Source of the DNA: a virus
Virus record (IMG/VR): IMGVR_UViG_3300028706_000260
Location: 1-51,938 of that record
Direction: 5' to 3' (one strand)
Length of the DNA stretch: 51,938 bases
Part shown: positions 38,320 through 43,463 of the stretch, piece by piece
How the letters are laid out: the number at the start of each line of letters is the position of its first letter
Position numbering within the stretch: position 1 is the first letter of the stretch
Notes under the pieces: model-generated
What the model was told of the DNA's origin: nothing
Databases searched by the model: none
What the model saw: only the letters and a program-made list of their open reading frames with translations
Translations under genes and position numbers: made by a program

Positions 38320-39649
38320 GCAACTGATAATCAGAAACCTCTGCATGAATGATGAATATACCCGTATGGTAATTCCATTCATTAAGAGTGAATATTTCGA
38401 AGGCGTTGCACGTAATGTGTTTGATGATATTGTCAATTTTGTGAATAAGTATAATAAGTTACCCACAGCAGAGACTCTTCTAATAGAGCTTGATGGCGGT
38501 GATTATAGTTCAGCTGTTGAGTTATTAAAGGCAGACGTTGAACCTGTTGAGAAGGATTGGCTGGTTGATTGCACCGAGAAGTGGTGCCAGGACAGGGCAC
38601 TTCACCTTGCTGTACTTGAATCAATTGAAATCATCAACGGCGCTCACGATGATCTAAGTAAGGATGCTATGCCTGATCTACTTCAAAAGGCATTATCGGT
38701 GACGTTTGATACCTCGGTTGGTCATGATTATATTGACAATGCTGAAGATCGTTTTGAATTCTATAATGCTGAAGAGACAAGAGTTCCGTTTGATTTGGAA
38801 TACTTTAATCAGATTACTAAGGGTGGGTTGCCTAATAAATCACTAAGTGTTATCCTTGCTGGTACTGGTGCTGGTAAATCCTTATTCATGTGCCACAACG
38901 CAGCATCTTGTCTGTCTATGGGTAAGAACGTTTTATATATTACTATGGAGATGGCAGAAGAGAGGATAGCAGAACGTATAGATGCTAATTTGATGAATGT
39001 TGATATCGGCCGGCTATCTACGTTGGATCATGATATATTCATTAATAAGGTGTCTAAGATTTCTGCGAAGACTAATGGGCATTTGATCGTTAAGGAGTAT
39101 CCTACAGGTTCGGCACACACTGGGCATTTCAGAGCATTGTTATCTGAGATTAAATTGAAACGTAATATCGTCCCTGATATTATCTTCATCGATTATCTTA
39201 ATATATGTTCATCTGCGCGCATGAAGGGAATGGGTGGGTCCATTAACTCTTATACATATATTAAAGCTATAGCTGAAGAGATTCGTGGATTGGCCGTAGA
39301 GTTCAACGTTCCTATCATGACTGCGACTCAGGTTAACCGAGAAGGATTTGATTCTTCTGATGTCGATCTTACTAATACATCTGAGAGTTTCGGATTACCA
39401 GCAACAGCAGATTTAATGTTTGCATTGATCACCAATGAAGAGTTGGAAGGCCTCAATCAGATTATGGTTAAGCAGTTAAAGAATCGATATAATGATCCTG
39501 GTATCAATAAGCGGTTTGTTATCGGTGTTGATAAATCGAAGATGAAGTTGTATGATGTTGAATCGTCTGCACAAACATTAGTGGGTCAGCCCCAACAGAA
39601 TGTCACACCACAGGCTCTAATGGAAAATAAGTTCAATGGATTCAAGTAA
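38309..39649 (+). CDS. gp41: Replicative helicase gp41 (DnaB-like)
   Basis: 446 aa, TTG start with AGGAGAT 4-5 nt upstream. N-terminal 'PFIKSEYFEGVARNVFDDIVNFV' as in gp41, RecA-like core with 'GLPNKSLSVILAGTGAGKSLFM' (Walker A GTGAGKS at 185-191), 'VLYITMEMAEERIAERI', 'IIFIDYLNICSS', 'MTATQVNREG' and 'LKNRYNDPG'. Hexameric 5'-3' helicase. T4 gp41 partners with primase gp61, not seen here. Confidence 0.96.
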   Translation: MNLEQLIIRNLCMNDEYTRMVIPFIKSEYFEGVARNVFDDIVNFVNKYNKLPTAETLLIELDGGDYSSAVELLKADVEPVEKDWLVDCTEKWCQDRALHLAVLESIEIINGAHDDLSKDAMPDLLQKALSVTFDTSVGHDYIDNAEDRFEFYNAEETRVPFDLEYFNQITKGGLPNKSLSVILAGTGAGKSLFMCHNAASCLSMGKNVLYITMEMAEERIAERIDANLMNVDIGRLSTLDHDIFINKVSKISAKTNGHLIVKEYPTGSAHTGHFRALLSEIKLKRNIVPDIIFIDYLNICSSARMKGMGGSINSYTYIKAIAEEIRGLAVEFNVPIMTATQVNREGFDSSDVDLTNTSESFGLPATADLMFALITNEELEGLNQIMVKQLKNRYNDPGINKRFVIGVDKSKMKLYDVESSAQTLVGQPQQNVTPQALMENKFNGFK

Positions 39650-39896
39650 TATGATCTGGTTCGATTTACTTCTGATTGCGATTACTGCTATATACTTCTA
39701 TAGGATAGGTCTTAGCACTGATATTGAAGTTGAGATTGAAGTTGAGAGTTACAATGCGGGTGTCGCAGAAGGTGTTGCTGGGACACTTAAAATCATGGAA
39801 GAGCAGAATGTTATAAGACGTAATAAGGACAATACCGATTATGAAATGCCATTGAAAGTGTGGTATGAAGATGATAGTCCAGAGATGGATAATTAA
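39636..39896 (+). CDS. Small N-terminally anchored membrane protein
   Basis: 86 aa (or 81 from the ATG at 39651). One N-terminal span 'MIWFDLLLIAITAIYFYRIGL' then an acidic cytoplasmic or periplasmic tail (DIEVEIEVESYNAGVAEGVAGTL...). Overlaps the gp41 stop by 14 bp. First gene of the membrane cluster that follows; whether it belongs to that system functionally is unknown. Confidence 0.75.
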   Translation: MDSSNMIWFDLLLIAITAIYFYRIGLSTDIEVEIEVESYNAGVAEGVAGTLKIMEEQNVIRRNKDNTDYEMPLKVWYEDDSPEMDN

Positions 39897-39916
39897 TTAA
39901 ATGAATGGTGGATAAT

Positions 39917-40741
39917 ATGTTCAGGTCCTTTTTTAGAGAGACTGGGTTTTTCTTAATAATATTAATTATAGTTTCCGCTAGCCTTGGTGGCTATGCATAC
40001 TATACTTATATCGACACTCAAAAAATATCACACGGGGATAGCGTCACTTGGTTTGATGAAGAGGTTGAAGAAAAACACCTAACACTAAAGAAGATATCAG
40101 ATACATTATATTCACTGACTGGTTCCGTCGGGATCGATGATTGTAAAGACATTGTACCACAACTCCCAACAAATACACCATTTGCCCTTATCCTAGAGAG
40201 TCCGGGTGGAGTCCTCGCAGAGGGTGCATGTCTGGCTTCTCACATCAAATTGCGTAATGTTATCACCATTGTAAGAGATACTCCTGTATTGGACGAAAAT
40301 GGTGATATTATGTACACGCCTGGATTGGTATATGAAAAATCACAGGAAGCTCTTGGTAAGGAAGTTGATGATCCCAGAATAGTCTGTGCATCCGCTTGCT
40401 CACTTATGTTTATTGCTGGTGACGTTAGATACCTAATAGGTGATGTGTGGTTGGGTATCCACGGACCAAGAACACCAGAAGAATCCTTAGGGATGATAGG
40501 TAAGCGTGCACTAGAAGCTTCTGCATATAGAACAGCTGGATCGCTTCTGAAACTATTAGACCATCTTGGTGTAACAAATAAAGAAGTTCAGAGAGCCTTT
40601 ATAATTATTCCCGGCACGAGTATGTATTGGCTTAACCCTCTTGATTGGAAAGCTACGCCTGCTCTACGTGAACTAGCTACCCACTATAGAGATTTTTGGG
40701 ACTATACAGGTGAAAATGTAATGTCTGGATTGGAGAGGTAG
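39917..40741 (+). CDS. Membrane-anchored periplasmic ClpP/SppA-fold protease
   Basis: 274 aa from the ATG at 39917 (GGTGG 5 nt upstream; ATG 39905 also possible). N-terminal span 'GFFLIILIIVSASLGGYAYY' (about 10-29) with positively charged N-tip, so the catalytic part is predicted periplasmic. Crotonase/ClpP-fold signatures: 'FALILESPGGVLAEGACLA' (95-98 SPGG), nucleophile motif 'CASACSLMFIAG' (Ser159) and 'WLGIHGP' (His182), as in extracytoplasmic ClpP-like proteins (COG3904 type). A catalytic Ser-His pair appears intact. Immediately precedes the SbmA-like transporter, so it may generate or trim peptides (inference). Confidence 0.82.
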   Translation: MFRSFFRETGFFLIILIIVSASLGGYAYYTYIDTQKISHGDSVTWFDEEVEEKHLTLKKISDTLYSLTGSVGIDDCKDIVPQLPTNTPFALILESPGGVLAEGACLASHIKLRNVITIVRDTPVLDENGDIMYTPGLVYEKSQEALGKEVDDPRIVCASACSLMFIAGDVRYLIGDVWLGIHGPRTPEESLGMIGKRALEASAYRTAGSLLKLLDHLGVTNKEVQRAFIIIPGTSMYWLNPLDWKATPALRELATHYRDFWDYTGENVMSGLER

Positions 40742-40744
40742 ATT

Positions 40745-41782
40745 ATGTTAAAGTCTTTTTTTGGAACTATGAATCGGGCATTTTATGCATGGGCCATGTT
40801 AGCTGTCTTGATGGCAATCTCATGGTATACGGTTCAAATATTAGTATTTTATAATGCATGGAATCGAGAGATTTATGATATTATCCAATCATTACAAGAA
40901 GAGAGGTTTTGGACTCAGTTCATATCATTTGATGCTGCTAGATTCACAGACCTATTATTATTGGTTGAGGATACCAAACCATCATTTGTTGAGATTATAG
41001 TACTATATACGCCTATAGCCACGTATGCAGTATGGCAGACCCAACGATATTGCTTCGCATGGCGAGAGGCAAATACCCACCACTATCTTACGCGATGGGA
41101 ACGATGCCCAGCTAAAATTGAAGGTGGTTCGCAGCGGATTCAAGAAGATTTAATGATCTTTGGTAAGACATTGCAAGGACTGTTTACTGGATTCTTCTCT
41201 GCAGTATTAGTATTATTTGCATTCCTTCCTATACTATGGGAACTATCAGAAGGCCTCCCTGTATGGAACGGTGAGATTATTCCTGGATTCTTAGTATGGG
41301 TGGCATTGGGTGTATCCCTCGGCGGAACACTGATATCAGTAATTCTTGGTTGGAAATTACCTAAGCTGGAATACAATAACCAGGTAGTTGAGGCTAAGTT
41401 TCGTAAGCAATTAGTATTCTCGGAAGATGATTTTGCATATAGATCGACAGCCATGCTGTTCCCTATGTTCACATCAATCAAGAGAAACTACTATAGGTTA
41501 TTTAATTGGTATATGGGATTTGGTGTATGGCAAACTGCATTCGGTTTATGTGTAGGTAATATAGCATTAATCGTCTTAGCACCCTCATACTTCCAACAGT
41601 TAATTACGTTGGGTGTATTATTCCAAGTACTTAATGCATTTGGTAGAGTGGAAAGTTCAATGGGATTTTTCATAGACCGCTGGACAACAATCGTAGACTT
41701 CATGAGTGTTATTAGACGTATACGTGAGTTCAATAGAGCCCTAGATGAAGCTGAAGAGGAGCAGAGTAATGGCCAATACTAA
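40745..41782 (+). CDS. SbmA/BacA-like inner-membrane peptide transporter
   Basis: 345 aa, slightly shorter than E. coli SbmA (406). Matches SbmA along the diagnostic parts as I recall them: 'YNAWNREIYDIIQ', 'FAWREANTHHYLTRWER' (SbmA 'FRWRTAMNEYYMANWQ'), 'EGGSQRIQEDLMIFGKTLQGL' (SbmA 'EGAAQRVQEDTMRFASTLENM'), 'LPKLEYNNQVVEAKFRKQLVFSEDD', 'KRNYYRLFNWYM', and 'VESSMGFFIDRWTTIVDFMSVIRRIREF'. About six or seven spans. SbmA imports antimicrobial peptides and microcins using the proton gradient. Flanked by protease and channel genes, with a 14-bp overlap to the latter. Confidence 0.9.
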   Translation: MLKSFFGTMNRAFYAWAMLAVLMAISWYTVQILVFYNAWNREIYDIIQSLQEERFWTQFISFDAARFTDLLLLVEDTKPSFVEIIVLYTPIATYAVWQTQRYCFAWREANTHHYLTRWERCPAKIEGGSQRIQEDLMIFGKTLQGLFTGFFSAVLVLFAFLPILWELSEGLPVWNGEIIPGFLVWVALGVSLGGTLISVILGWKLPKLEYNNQVVEAKFRKQLVFSEDDFAYRSTAMLFPMFTSIKRNYYRLFNWYMGFGVWQTAFGLCVGNIALIVLAPSYFQQLITLGVLFQVLNAFGRVESSMGFFIDRWTTIVDFMSVIRRIREFNRALDEAEEEQSNGQY

Positions 41783-42260
41783 AAAGACATTTTTAAGATA
41801 CTGGGCGTTTGTATCTGTACTCTTATGCGGTGGCATTGCATTGCATTGGAATGATATATTCAATGACATATATGAAGCTGATGTTACTGGTATTAGTAAT
41901 GGAATATACGTTGTATTTGGCCTTGCTATAATTCTTACTGGTTTTGCATCTATGCGTGTGGCTAACGCAAATAATCAGTTTGGGTATGCTAGTAGAACAG
42001 ATAAGTATGTCGACATTTCGTGGTTCCTCTCCGAGGCCATGATGACATTAGGGCTTATTGGTACAGTAGCTGGTATGATATACTTATTCGGCCAGATCTT
42101 CCACGATATCGATCCATCCGACCCCGATGATCTAAAGGCAGCATTGTCCCATATGGCTTCAGGATTATCTACTGCAATGTATACCACCATCGTTGGAATG
42201 GTTGGGGCATTATGTACTAAAGTGCTTCTGATGAATATAGAATTTGATCAGGGGAAGTAA
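41769..42260 (+). CDS. TolQ/ExbB/MotA-like proton-channel subunit
   Basis: 163 aa from the ATG at 41769 (AGGAG upstream). Four predicted spans at about 11-26, 43-63, 91-111 and 131-156. The last two carry the family hallmarks: 'MTLGLIGTVAGMIYLF' (GLIGTVAGM 95-103) and 'GLSTAMYTTIVGMVGAL' with consecutive Thr, equivalent to the 'ALxTTxxGl' pore helix of TolQ/ExbB/MotA. It lacks the long cytoplasmic loop of TolQ. The next gene supplies the expected partner with an Asp in its TM. Homologous pairs use proton flow to do mechanical work across the envelope. Confidence 0.82.
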   Translation: MANTKKTFLRYWAFVSVLLCGGIALHWNDIFNDIYEADVTGISNGIYVVFGLAIILTGFASMRVANANNQFGYASRTDKYVDISWFLSEAMMTLGLIGTVAGMIYLFGQIFHDIDPSDPDDLKAALSHMASGLSTAMYTTIVGMVGALCTKVLLMNIEFDQGK

Positions 42261-42265
42261 TCGCC

Positions 42266-42925
42266 ATGGACAGATCTAAGTTTAAGAGTATGATAGCGTT
42301 CCTCGACATGCTTTGGATCCTCTTGGCGGGTTTCGGTGCAATGTTTATAATAGCATATCTATTGATTCAACCACCAGCAAAAAATGCAGACATAATCAAA
42401 AAGGCCGAGTATATTATCAACCTCGTATGGGATGAAAATGTAGGTCATGATATCGATCTGTGGGTCATGGATCCTAACGGTAATGTTGTTAGCTTTAGAG
42501 GTAAGACCGCAGGCTTTATGAACCTTGAGAAGGATGATGTCGGTAACCAAAATGATACGATAACTGATGAATATGGCAATGCCACCACATTAAGGATCAA
42601 TGAAGAAACTGTAACATTACGAGGCACTATTCCCGGAGAGTATCAAGTTATGATACATGTATATTCAAGAGGTGTTGGAACTAATGCAGACCCGAAAGAC
42701 TTTTATGTGGAAGTTATAAAGGTCAATCCTTATAAGAACGTATACAGACATTCTGGTGTATATAGGGCTAGGGGTCAGCAAATATCTATAGTAAGATTTA
42801 CAGTAGGTCCTGATGATAAATTTATTGGCTTCAATAATCATCCATCTAATATTATAAAATTCTCCCAAATAAGTGCCTCATTAGCTGGTATCACATCATC
42901 GATAACTGAGGAGATACCATTATGA
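42266..42925 (+). CDS. MotB/ExbD/TolR-like subunit with YfaP-like periplasmic domain
   Basis: 219 aa. Short N-terminus then one span 'MIAFLDMLWILLAGFGAMFIIAYLLI' with Asp14, the position of the proton-accepting Asp in MotB/ExbD/TolR ('..D....LL..F'). The periplasmic part starts 'LVWDENVGHDIDLWVMDPNGNVVSF' (about 53-77) and continues with 'GEYQVMIHVYS', the 'W-x-x-x-x-D-x-D-L-x-V-x-D-P-x-G' pattern of YfaP/DUF2135-type beta-sandwich domains. No OmpA-type peptidoglycan-binding motif is seen. Overlaps the next gene by ATGA. Likely forms a complex with the preceding channel gene. Confidence 0.8.
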   Translation: MDRSKFKSMIAFLDMLWILLAGFGAMFIIAYLLIQPPAKNADIIKKAEYIINLVWDENVGHDIDLWVMDPNGNVVSFRGKTAGFMNLEKDDVGNQNDTITDEYGNATTLRINEETVTLRGTIPGEYQVMIHVYSRGVGTNADPKDFYVEVIKVNPYKNVYRHSGVYRARGQQISIVRFTVGPDDKFIGFNNHPSNIIKFSQISASLAGITSSITEEIPL

Positions 42926-43401
42926 TTGATTTTGACATGATCCGAATAATTGCAACGTTAAGTTTTTTTCTGATTGCAGCATTCTCTATTTTTATTATGA
43001 TAAAGTATGGCAATCATAACCCACTCATGTATCTCATCATTCCGATCGTATTGGTGTTATCTACATACACATATAAGATATCAGAGTCTCTTATGGGATA
43101 CCCCGTATCGATATCTAGCCAAGGTATGGAGCAAATGTATGTGCATCATTATACTGGTCCAAACAGAGAGTGGATATACATCTGGGCTATAGATCTGAAG
43201 TTATCTAAAATACCTCGTGCATATAAAATTCCTTTCTCTGAGGAGAATGAAAAGAAGATGATGGAGGCCAAGAAAAAGCAAGATCAGGGGTATCCCCAAA
43301 TCATGAAGTCGGAAAAGATTGATAATCCCAATAAAGGTAGCAGGACAGAATTATCCATCCAATTTTATAAATTTTCAGGTGCTGCAGCTTCAGATAAATG
43401 A
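42922..43401 (+). CDS. Two-TM protein, last gene of the membrane cluster
   Basis: 159 aa. Two closely spaced spans: 'IRIIATLSFFLIAAFSIFIMI' (about 7-27) and 'PLMYLIIPIVLVLSTYTYKI' (34-53), followed by a soluble domain (SISSQGMEQMYVHHYTGPNREWIYIWAIDLKLSKIPRAYKIP...) and a Lys-rich tail (EENEKKMMEAKKKQDQ). Function unrecognised. ATGA overlap with the MotB-like gene shows co-translation. A new promoter follows, closing the unit. Confidence 0.78.
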   Translation: MIDFDMIRIIATLSFFLIAAFSIFIMIKYGNHNPLMYLIIPIVLVLSTYTYKISESLMGYPVSISSQGMEQMYVHHYTGPNREWIYIWAIDLKLSKIPRAYKIPFSEENEKKMMEAKKKQDQGYPQIMKSEKIDNPNKGSRTELSIQFYKFSGAAASDK

Positions 43402-43434: not shown

Positions 43435-43463
43435 TTGCCCATTTCTCGTAAATGTGATATAAT
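43435..43463 (+). promoter_or_regulatory. Early promoter, TTGCCC-17-TATAAT
   Basis: TTGCCC (43435-43440), 17 bp, TATAAT (43458-43463), followed by a leader similar to that at 46202 (AACTATATTGAATTGA). Confidence 0.8.

Follow-up and report, generated by a model that had tools for sequence, protein, structure and literature searches.

Besides the TerD tellurite-resistance domain, three kinds of described system come closest to the locus reported here. ClpP and the extracytoplasmic proteases of the ClpP class (COG3904) form one; SbmA/BacA-type proteins (SLiPT) are proton-coupled peptide importers that carry no ATPase domain; and the TolQR, ExbBD, MotAB and ZorAB pairs each combine a MotA_ExbB-family channel subunit with a partner whose single membrane helix bears an invariant aspartate. 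We have found apparent relatives of all three side by side in a virus record of 51,938 bases (IMG/VR record IMGVR_UViG_3300028706_000260; GC content 38%), which is analysed here at its full length as the window and carries a gene set recognised by eye as T4-like. Positions 39636-43401 of the window hold six uninterrupted open reading frames (ORFs), P1 to P6, all on the plus strand, and we resolve five of these into two membrane modules: module A, the putative protease and importer P2-P3, and module B, the triad P4-P5-P6. Literature searches returned, among the matches listed, no described phage system in which a periplasmic ClpP-like protease and a channel of MotA/ExbB type accompany SbmA. By text search, an account of viral membrane transporters does not mention SbmA, MotA, ExbB or TolQ (PMC6163359), the words phage, virus and viral are absent from one on SbmA/BacA distribution (PMC12003926), a single phage ExbB is named in another context (PMC11361711), and of six terms sought in a paper on AP-16-3, 'protease' is the single one present, where it describes the head gene p004 (PMC10460002).

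Module A is defined by a gene order that is kept beyond chance. P2 (39917..40741, plus strand) encodes a putative membrane-tethered ClpP-fold serine protease, predicted to be periplasmic, of 274 amino acids (aa), and P3 (40745..41782, plus strand) a putative SbmA/BacA-type proton-coupled peptide importer of 345 aa. A scan with P3 retrieved 65 viral loci, with P2 directly upstream in 59; the exceptions are five divergent loci (38-39% identity) without P2 and one contig that begins inside P3. An independent scan with P2 yielded 68 loci, in 64 of which P3 is the next gene, the remainder being two contigs that end, one with a 61-aa ORF in between and one without P3. Bacterial SbmA-family genes were sampled at 52 loci, with about 1.5 kb on each side, from 190 genomes in the class of G001 and 185 in that of G006 (by bin title, Alphaproteobacteria and Gammaproteobacteria, respectively). 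P2 stands beside the SbmA-family gene at one of these loci, on a viral-looking contig in bin G006, and no P2-P3-like pair is present within that distance at the other 51, about 19 of which score like true SbmA while the others are longer ABC-type relatives. Since P2 adjoins an SbmA-family gene only on this viral-looking contig, the pair appears to be phage-specific in these samples. P2 was likewise not found among 289 genomes of the class of G001, in a search run without a positive control. Neither a nucleotide search of the region against 50,697 phage records nor tblastn of P2, P4 and P6 against phage records gave a match, and P3 matched four of them, two labelled as Acinetobacter 'phage' and two short and unannotated. 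The 254-kb record labelled Acinetobacter phage MD-2021a (L071), where SbmA lies beside patatin, threonine dehydratase and PepO genes, resembles a bacterial chromosome.

The triad comprises P4 (41769..42260, 163 aa), a small MotA/TolQ/ExbB-type channel subunit with four predicted membrane helices; P5 (42266..42925, 219 aa), in which a MotB/TolR/ExbD/ZorB-type helix carrying D14 is joined to a predicted periplasmic TerD-fold domain; and P6 (42922..43401, 159 aa), the third subunit, with two membrane helices and a predicted periplasmic C-terminal part, all on the plus strand. A P5 profile scan confirmed 443 of 471 viral stretches, and 80 loci were kept. P4 lies upstream and P6 downstream of P5 at 115 of 120 P5 loci, which partly overlap, as do the loci behind the ClpP counts given below; at 72 distinct loci, including four Rhizobium phages and three bacterial loci, P4 lies no more than 5 kb from P5 in 70 cases and P6 in all 72. 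The phages concerned are RL2RES, RHph_N3_13, RHph_I1_18 and 16-3. Beyond viruses, a six-frame search located P5 in 38 of the 289 genomes of the class of G001, a count that includes two rows weaker than E 1e-7 as well as G001 itself, which was selected as a triad carrier. P5 also occurs in bins whose titles read Harrisonbacteria, Yanofskybacteria and Rokuibacteriota; of 192 genomes in the phylum to which the first of these belongs, that genome is the only one in which the triad was found. Chromosomal triads sit among ordinary, housekeeping-looking genes (named by eye) whose order is common to sister genomes. The P4 ORFs called there are in many cases longer (about 207-307 aa, with unchecked starts). 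The complete set of triad genes was called at 15 of 35 bacterial loci, a low figure that results from a longest-ORF picker favouring antisense ORFs in GC-rich DNA. In the P5 tree, bacterial and phage rows fall largely apart, the 16-3 copy lying within one bacterial group (100/99, long branch); long branches such as this one could be in the wrong place, and contigs scored as free of P2 could be fragmentary.

Several further features of triad neighbourhoods were seen. A lipoprotein-like gene follows P6 at eight of the 35 bacterial loci as called (L203 11117-11827, L200, L202, L204, L205 and L213-L215), with a weak DUF3108_like match for that of L203. Several chromosomal triads lie near pyrroloquinoline quinone (PQQ)-dependent dehydrogenases (L181 and L206-L211, names by eye), and at L082 607-7348 the triad lies beside an ABC transporter, TonB receptor and beta-propeller cluster that resembles, by eye, lanthanide or PQQ metabolism; both arrangements may be chance. 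Loci L079, L080, L081, L086 and L262, binned as Gammaproteobacteria, Legionellales, Methylophilaceae and Chloroflexi, have neighbour genes common to viral loci and resemble viral contigs that ended up in metagenome bins.

The two modules keep company without being inseparable. P5 is present, nearby or elsewhere, on 18 of the 27 contigs of at least 45 kb that carry P2-P3; two further records (29 in all) are divergent P3 contigs without P2, and both are P5-negative. Across 29 distinct P3 loci, P4 directly follows P3 in 12 and the triad lies upstream in eight, while at seven P2-P3 loci the stretch examined contains no triad, and two loci have no P2. From the other side, a search for P2 in records with P5 was negative for 17 of 20 environmental ones, which are possibly fragments, and for all four from Rhizobium phages. 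Because the P2-P3-linked rows of the P5 tree need five changes, at least three of them forced by well-supported branches, P2-P3 appears to have sat with more than one triad lineage. Thus, P2-P3 travels mostly with triad-bearing phages and is not welded to one triad, and the modules are separable, since each is found without the other and the triad also occurs on bacterial chromosomes. A cytosolic ClpP gene (PF00574) is a third companion: it lies within 5 kb at 18 of 25 distinct P5 loci with P2, compared with one of 47 without (Fisher p 1.9e-10), counts that are confounded by kinship and contig ends. In many phages this gene adjoins the triad or P2 (for example, L006 8176-8769).

These results modify the original prediction, which had treated the genes at 39636-43401 as one contiguous membrane cluster acting as a single system. 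The six ORFs are present and uninterrupted, and the neighbourhood survey, set beforehand as a test that could refute the proposal, showed the cluster genes recurring together at other loci. The cluster is real; however, it consists of two separable modules, P2-P3 and P4-P6, with its first gene outside. That gene, P1 (39636..39896, plus strand, 86 aa, one membrane helix), has no relative at the other loci compared and appears not to be part of the cluster. The predicted spacings are exact given the starts used for P2 (39917) and P4 (41769), which are those common to the closest homologues: P1 overlaps the preceding gene by 14 bases, and 20, 3, -14, 5 and -4 bases separate the successive genes from P1 to P6. 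The family calls hold as well, for P3 (SbmA_BacA) and P4 (MotA_ExbB) by Pfam, for the ClpP fold of P2 by predicted structure, and for P5 by a channel-type helix with an invariant aspartate. An early promoter at 43435 had been proposed to close the cluster. The 9 kb scanned contains 33 promoter-like sites, this one included, and shuffled sequence gives 36.1 +/- 5.7; because such sites are no more numerous than in shuffled sequence, it constitutes no evidence.

P2 has no match at E 0.01 or better in Pfam, NCBIfam or PHROG; the score of Pfam CLP_protease is not reached, and the sole Pfam row is Spo7 (E 0.099). Its fold is nevertheless predicted to be that of ClpP. An AlphaFold2 model of a single chain, built from a 23-sequence alignment (predicted local distance difference test, pLDDT, 77), matches ClpP with a Foldseek E of 2.6e-7, and VIA lists 50 entries, every one a ClpP (Z 13.9-14.2 over alignments of 156-165 residues), the best at Z 14.2 over 158-161 residues. 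Profile comparison by hhalign with 19 phage cytosolic ClpP sequences gave 82% (E 1e-5), compared with 0.05-0.1% for the controls P5 and P6. An alternative ATG at 39905 adds four residues to P2, and in the resulting 278-aa numbering S163, H186, C80, C109, C161 and C165 are invariant in 23 sequences. S163 and H186 are in register with ClpP by eye, with a one-residue gap left by hhalign near the serine. Since the mean charge is +2.7 before and -1.0 after the single helix (77 relatives), the protease domain is predicted to lie outside the inner membrane, in the periplasm, where P2 would act as a protease. One relative, at L419, starts with an apparent cleavable signal peptide (by eye). A single PADLOC row, PDC-S02 (E 0.021), was taken as chance. 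Directly upstream of P2, a cysteine-containing protein of about 100 aa without a Pfam match is encoded (for example, at L017 5417-5710) at 44 of the 76 P2 loci that have an upstream ORF, some of these loci overlapping; P1 occupies that place in the window.

P3 falls within SbmA_BacA (PF05992, E 1.5e-75, 255 bits, cut-off 24) and misses the SbmA equivalog NF008306 of NCBIfam (221.8 bits, cut-off 492); by these scores it is a member of the SbmA family and not SbmA itself. Its identity to the nearest bacterial relatives sampled is 39-40%. Against the Escherichia coli SbmA chain 7p34 (E 5.5e-50), the alignment begins at SbmA residue 84, and hence the N-terminal TM0 part is absent; some bacterial members of the family are equally short (322-331 aa). 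The proton path of SbmA has been assigned to glutamates E193, E203, E269, E276, E287 and E378 (PMC13316013). In a 52-row alignment of P3, with gaps left out and one row from an Acinetobacter record, E193 (50/50), E269 (49/50), E276 (50/50) and E287 (50/50) are kept, E378 is replaced by aspartate in 41 of 48 rows and E203 by glutamine in 42 of 51. With four glutamates kept, E378 mostly Asp and E203 mostly Gln, transport by P3 is likely but not certain; its substrate would be peptides.

P4 belongs to MotA_ExbB (PF01618, E 1.7e-8, 34.7 bits, cut-off 22.9). Hydropathy gives four helices, of which the second and third are joined by a loop of about 25 residues; threonine is conserved in the third and fourth. 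Comparison of its profile with MotA, ZorA, ExbB and TolQ chains is weak (E 0.018-0.7, unrelated chains appearing from 0.28 on). In the PADLOC defence library, P4 matches ZorA profiles (best 8.9e-7), as it does in NCBIfam (ZorA, 4.9e-4), although it covers only a short part, the channel helices, of profiles that are 420-683 positions long; the long cytoplasmic ZorA tail is absent. PADLOC gave no row for P3, P5 or P6.

P5 has no Pfam match and a weak one to an unnamed PHROG only (E 0.008). Its one N-terminal membrane helix contains D14, which does not vary in either alignment (25 of 25 and 33 of 33 sequences) and which coincides, by eye, with the channel aspartate of MotB, TolR, ExbD and ZorB; the charge bias around the helix is weak (+1.3 before, +0.8 after, in 120 relatives). 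The AlphaFold2 model has a pLDDT of 84, mostly above 90 in the C-terminal domain, and its best match is TerD 3ibz (Z 11.3, root-mean-square deviation 4.6, 139 residues). Further matches are TerD 2qz7 (Z 9.5) and SAV2460 2qng (Z 9.9), together with 9a6r (Z 10.1) and 7jtk (Z 9.8), which are entries of other complexes; the next row is at 7.0. Foldseek returned one match under E 0.001, again 2qng, and a viral structure library two, neither with a named function. PF02342 (TerD) is not among the 16 families listed for 33 P5 relatives. Kinship with TerD was also sought by profile comparison and set aside, the score being the same as for controls. We therefore predict a TerD fold for the C-terminal domain and claim no kinship. 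Acidic residues D62, D64, D90, D91 and E114 are invariant in 25 sequences, with D97 in addition in the set of 33, and suggest calcium binding. An ExbD or OmpA-like C-terminal domain was found neither in P5 by Pfam nor among those 16 families, and a ZorB-type peptidoglycan-binding domain gave no family match in P5 (Pfam, PADLOC) or its 33 relatives. A P5-like stretch (E 4.6e-6) is also held within a 923-aa bacterial ORF at L199, possibly a TerD-fold domain in another setting. For P6, family matches are weak throughout (E 0.025 or worse in Pfam, NCBIfam and PHROG). Because the loop between its two helices is positive on average (+1.6, 121 relatives), its C-terminus is probably outside, in the periplasm.

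Taken together, our findings lead us to favor, tentatively and at somewhat less than even confidence, two cooperating phage-carried membrane modules, one for cutting and importing periplasmic peptides and the other an ion-driven periplasmic motor. With a predicted periplasmic protease fixed beside a peptide importer, and a cytosolic protease gene often nearby, periplasmic peptide cutting and uptake would be the simplest reading of P2-P3. Trypsin-like proteases near the triad in phages 16-3 and RHph_N3_13 also speak for this account. P2, anchored to the inner membrane and with a periplasm-facing active site, would cut periplasmic polypeptides; P3 would carry the resulting peptides inward with protons; and the phage ClpP encoded next door in many relatives could finish them off in the cytoplasm. 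The gain would be amino-acid salvage and the removal of envelope debris during infection. The triad would be an ion-driven motor with conserved parts of the five-to-two type, in which two P5 surrounded by five P4 make up an ion channel, presumably for protons rather than sodium, whose flow moves the P5 helices. Because the cytoplasmic loop of P4 is so short, the motor would do its work on the periplasmic side, by way of P6 and the TerD-fold domain of P5, much as Tol or Exb systems do, and module B may assist module A. It is tempting to speculate further that the whole is a single machine, a counterpart of ClpXP that works in the periplasm and needs no ATP: the motor would pull or unfold periplasmic proteins through a calcium-binding TerD-fold domain and feed them to P2, and P3 would import the peptides, with unfolding, cleavage and import all powered by the proton gradient; this we regard as very unlikely.

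Several observations weigh against the favored account of peptide salvage assisted by a motor. E203, the proposed first proton site of SbmA, is mostly glutamine in relatives of P3, which also lacks TM0. Comparison by hhalign of P5 with five TerD sequences gave 0.6%, where controls gave 0.3 and 0.6%, and so lends no profile support to TerD kinship. No P5 was seen on nine of the 27 long contigs with P2-P3, a 246-kb contig among them, fragments being possible, and P2 was found in three of 24 P5 records, all three of them already known P2-P3 records. The ClpP association may mirror phage kinship, the 47 loci without P2 including four Rhizobium phages and three bacterial loci, and no ClpP gene was found in the window itself.

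Other explanations draw on the same evidence. The ZorA profiles matched by P4 would fit a triad engaged in superinfection exclusion or counter-defence, in which a stunted ZorAB-like channel detects that other phages disturb the envelope or resets such a disturbance, or else poisons host Zorya complexes, while P2 degrades incoming injection proteins. An infected cell would benefit from shutting out rivals, and the position of the cluster after the helicase is one that we take to resemble the location of T4 imm. However, the ZorA matches are limited to the channel helices. Zorya defence needs the cytoplasmic extension of ZorA and the peptidoglycan-binding domain of ZorB, as stated in PMC11890865, and neither was found in P4 or P5. 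The housekeeping-looking settings and shared gene order of chromosomal triads (by eye) also argue against exclusion, which leaves the peptide importer unexplained; we consider it unlikely, if worth serious attention. The existence of a cellular triad, with P5 in 38 of 289 genomes of one class, speaks instead for envelope upkeep, whereby P2-P3 would clear misfolded or antimicrobial peptides and P4-P6 would replace or reinforce a host Tol-like system during host shut-off, food not being the point. SbmA is known for antimicrobial peptides (PMC13316013), and trypsin-family proteases occur near the triad in two Rhizobium phages: Trypsin_2 proteases of 16-3 and RHph_N3_13 (L004 2250-3149 and L002 7591-8283), in neither of which P2 was found. 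Yet no envelope-stress gene was recognised among the 28 neighbour clusters listed, most of them unnamed and read by eye only, and the link to cytosolic ClpP suits salvage better, so that upkeep, too, seems to us a rather improbable account.

That each module occurs without the other, and that the side and distance of the triad vary, could also mean two unrelated auxiliary modules made neighbours by a shared gene stock. Against this stand the several triad lineages with which P2-P3 is found and the presence of P5 on 18 of 27 long P2-P3 contigs, a proportion that has no base rate of P5 in comparable phages, as terminase relatives (T4-like phages) lie mostly on short contigs; we hold coincidence of this kind to be doubtful. 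A nutritional role of another sort is suggested by Rv1819c, an SbmA-related mycobacterial transporter that takes up cobalamin, for P3 could import this cofactor for a phage B12-dependent ribonucleotide reductase. NrdJ (TIGR02504) is above its cut-off on none of the 27 P2-P3 contigs, which are possibly fragments; four weaker matches are ORFs of 766-774 aa, presumably the size of class I ribonucleotide reductases; and the link to a protease goes unexplained. Cobalamin import was therefore set aside as scarcely credible. The fixed pairing of protease and importer points to phages reshaping the periplasm, whether for nutrition or for quality control. The presence of the triad in the cultured phage 16-3 makes it testable in the laboratory.

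Set beside the known systems, each component is familiar in part. P2 shares with ClpP and the extracytoplasmic ClpP-class proteases a predicted ClpP fold and, by eye, a serine and histidine in the expected places, but differs in its N-terminal membrane anchor, predicted periplasmic location and four invariant cysteines, in the lack of a Pfam match, and in that no AAA partner was identified. P3 agrees with SbmA/BacA (SLiPT) in Pfam family, in having no ATPase domain and in most proton-path glutamates, whereas it is without TM0, has mostly glutamine at E203, and is phage-encoded beside a predicted periplasmic protease. P5 resembles the tellurite-resistance domain TerD in its predicted fold (Z 11.3) and its set of conserved acidic residues, yet it is without profile similarity, membrane-anchored and predicted to be extracytoplasmic. 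As in TolQR, ExbBD, MotAB and ZorAB, a MotA_ExbB-family subunit with conserved threonine is paired with a single helix bearing an invariant aspartate; in contrast to all of these, P5 ends in a predicted TerD-fold domain and not in an ExbD/TolR or peptidoglycan-binding domain, P4 has neither a cytoplasmic domain of MotA size nor the ZorA tail, and a third protein, P6, is added. Two of the three triad proteins are without a Pfam or NCBIfam match over cut-off, and with its predicted TerD-fold output domain the triad would add a branch to the MotAB/TolQR/ExbBD/ZorAB group. P3 is a known transporter family in a new setting, and the triad would be a new form of ion motor.

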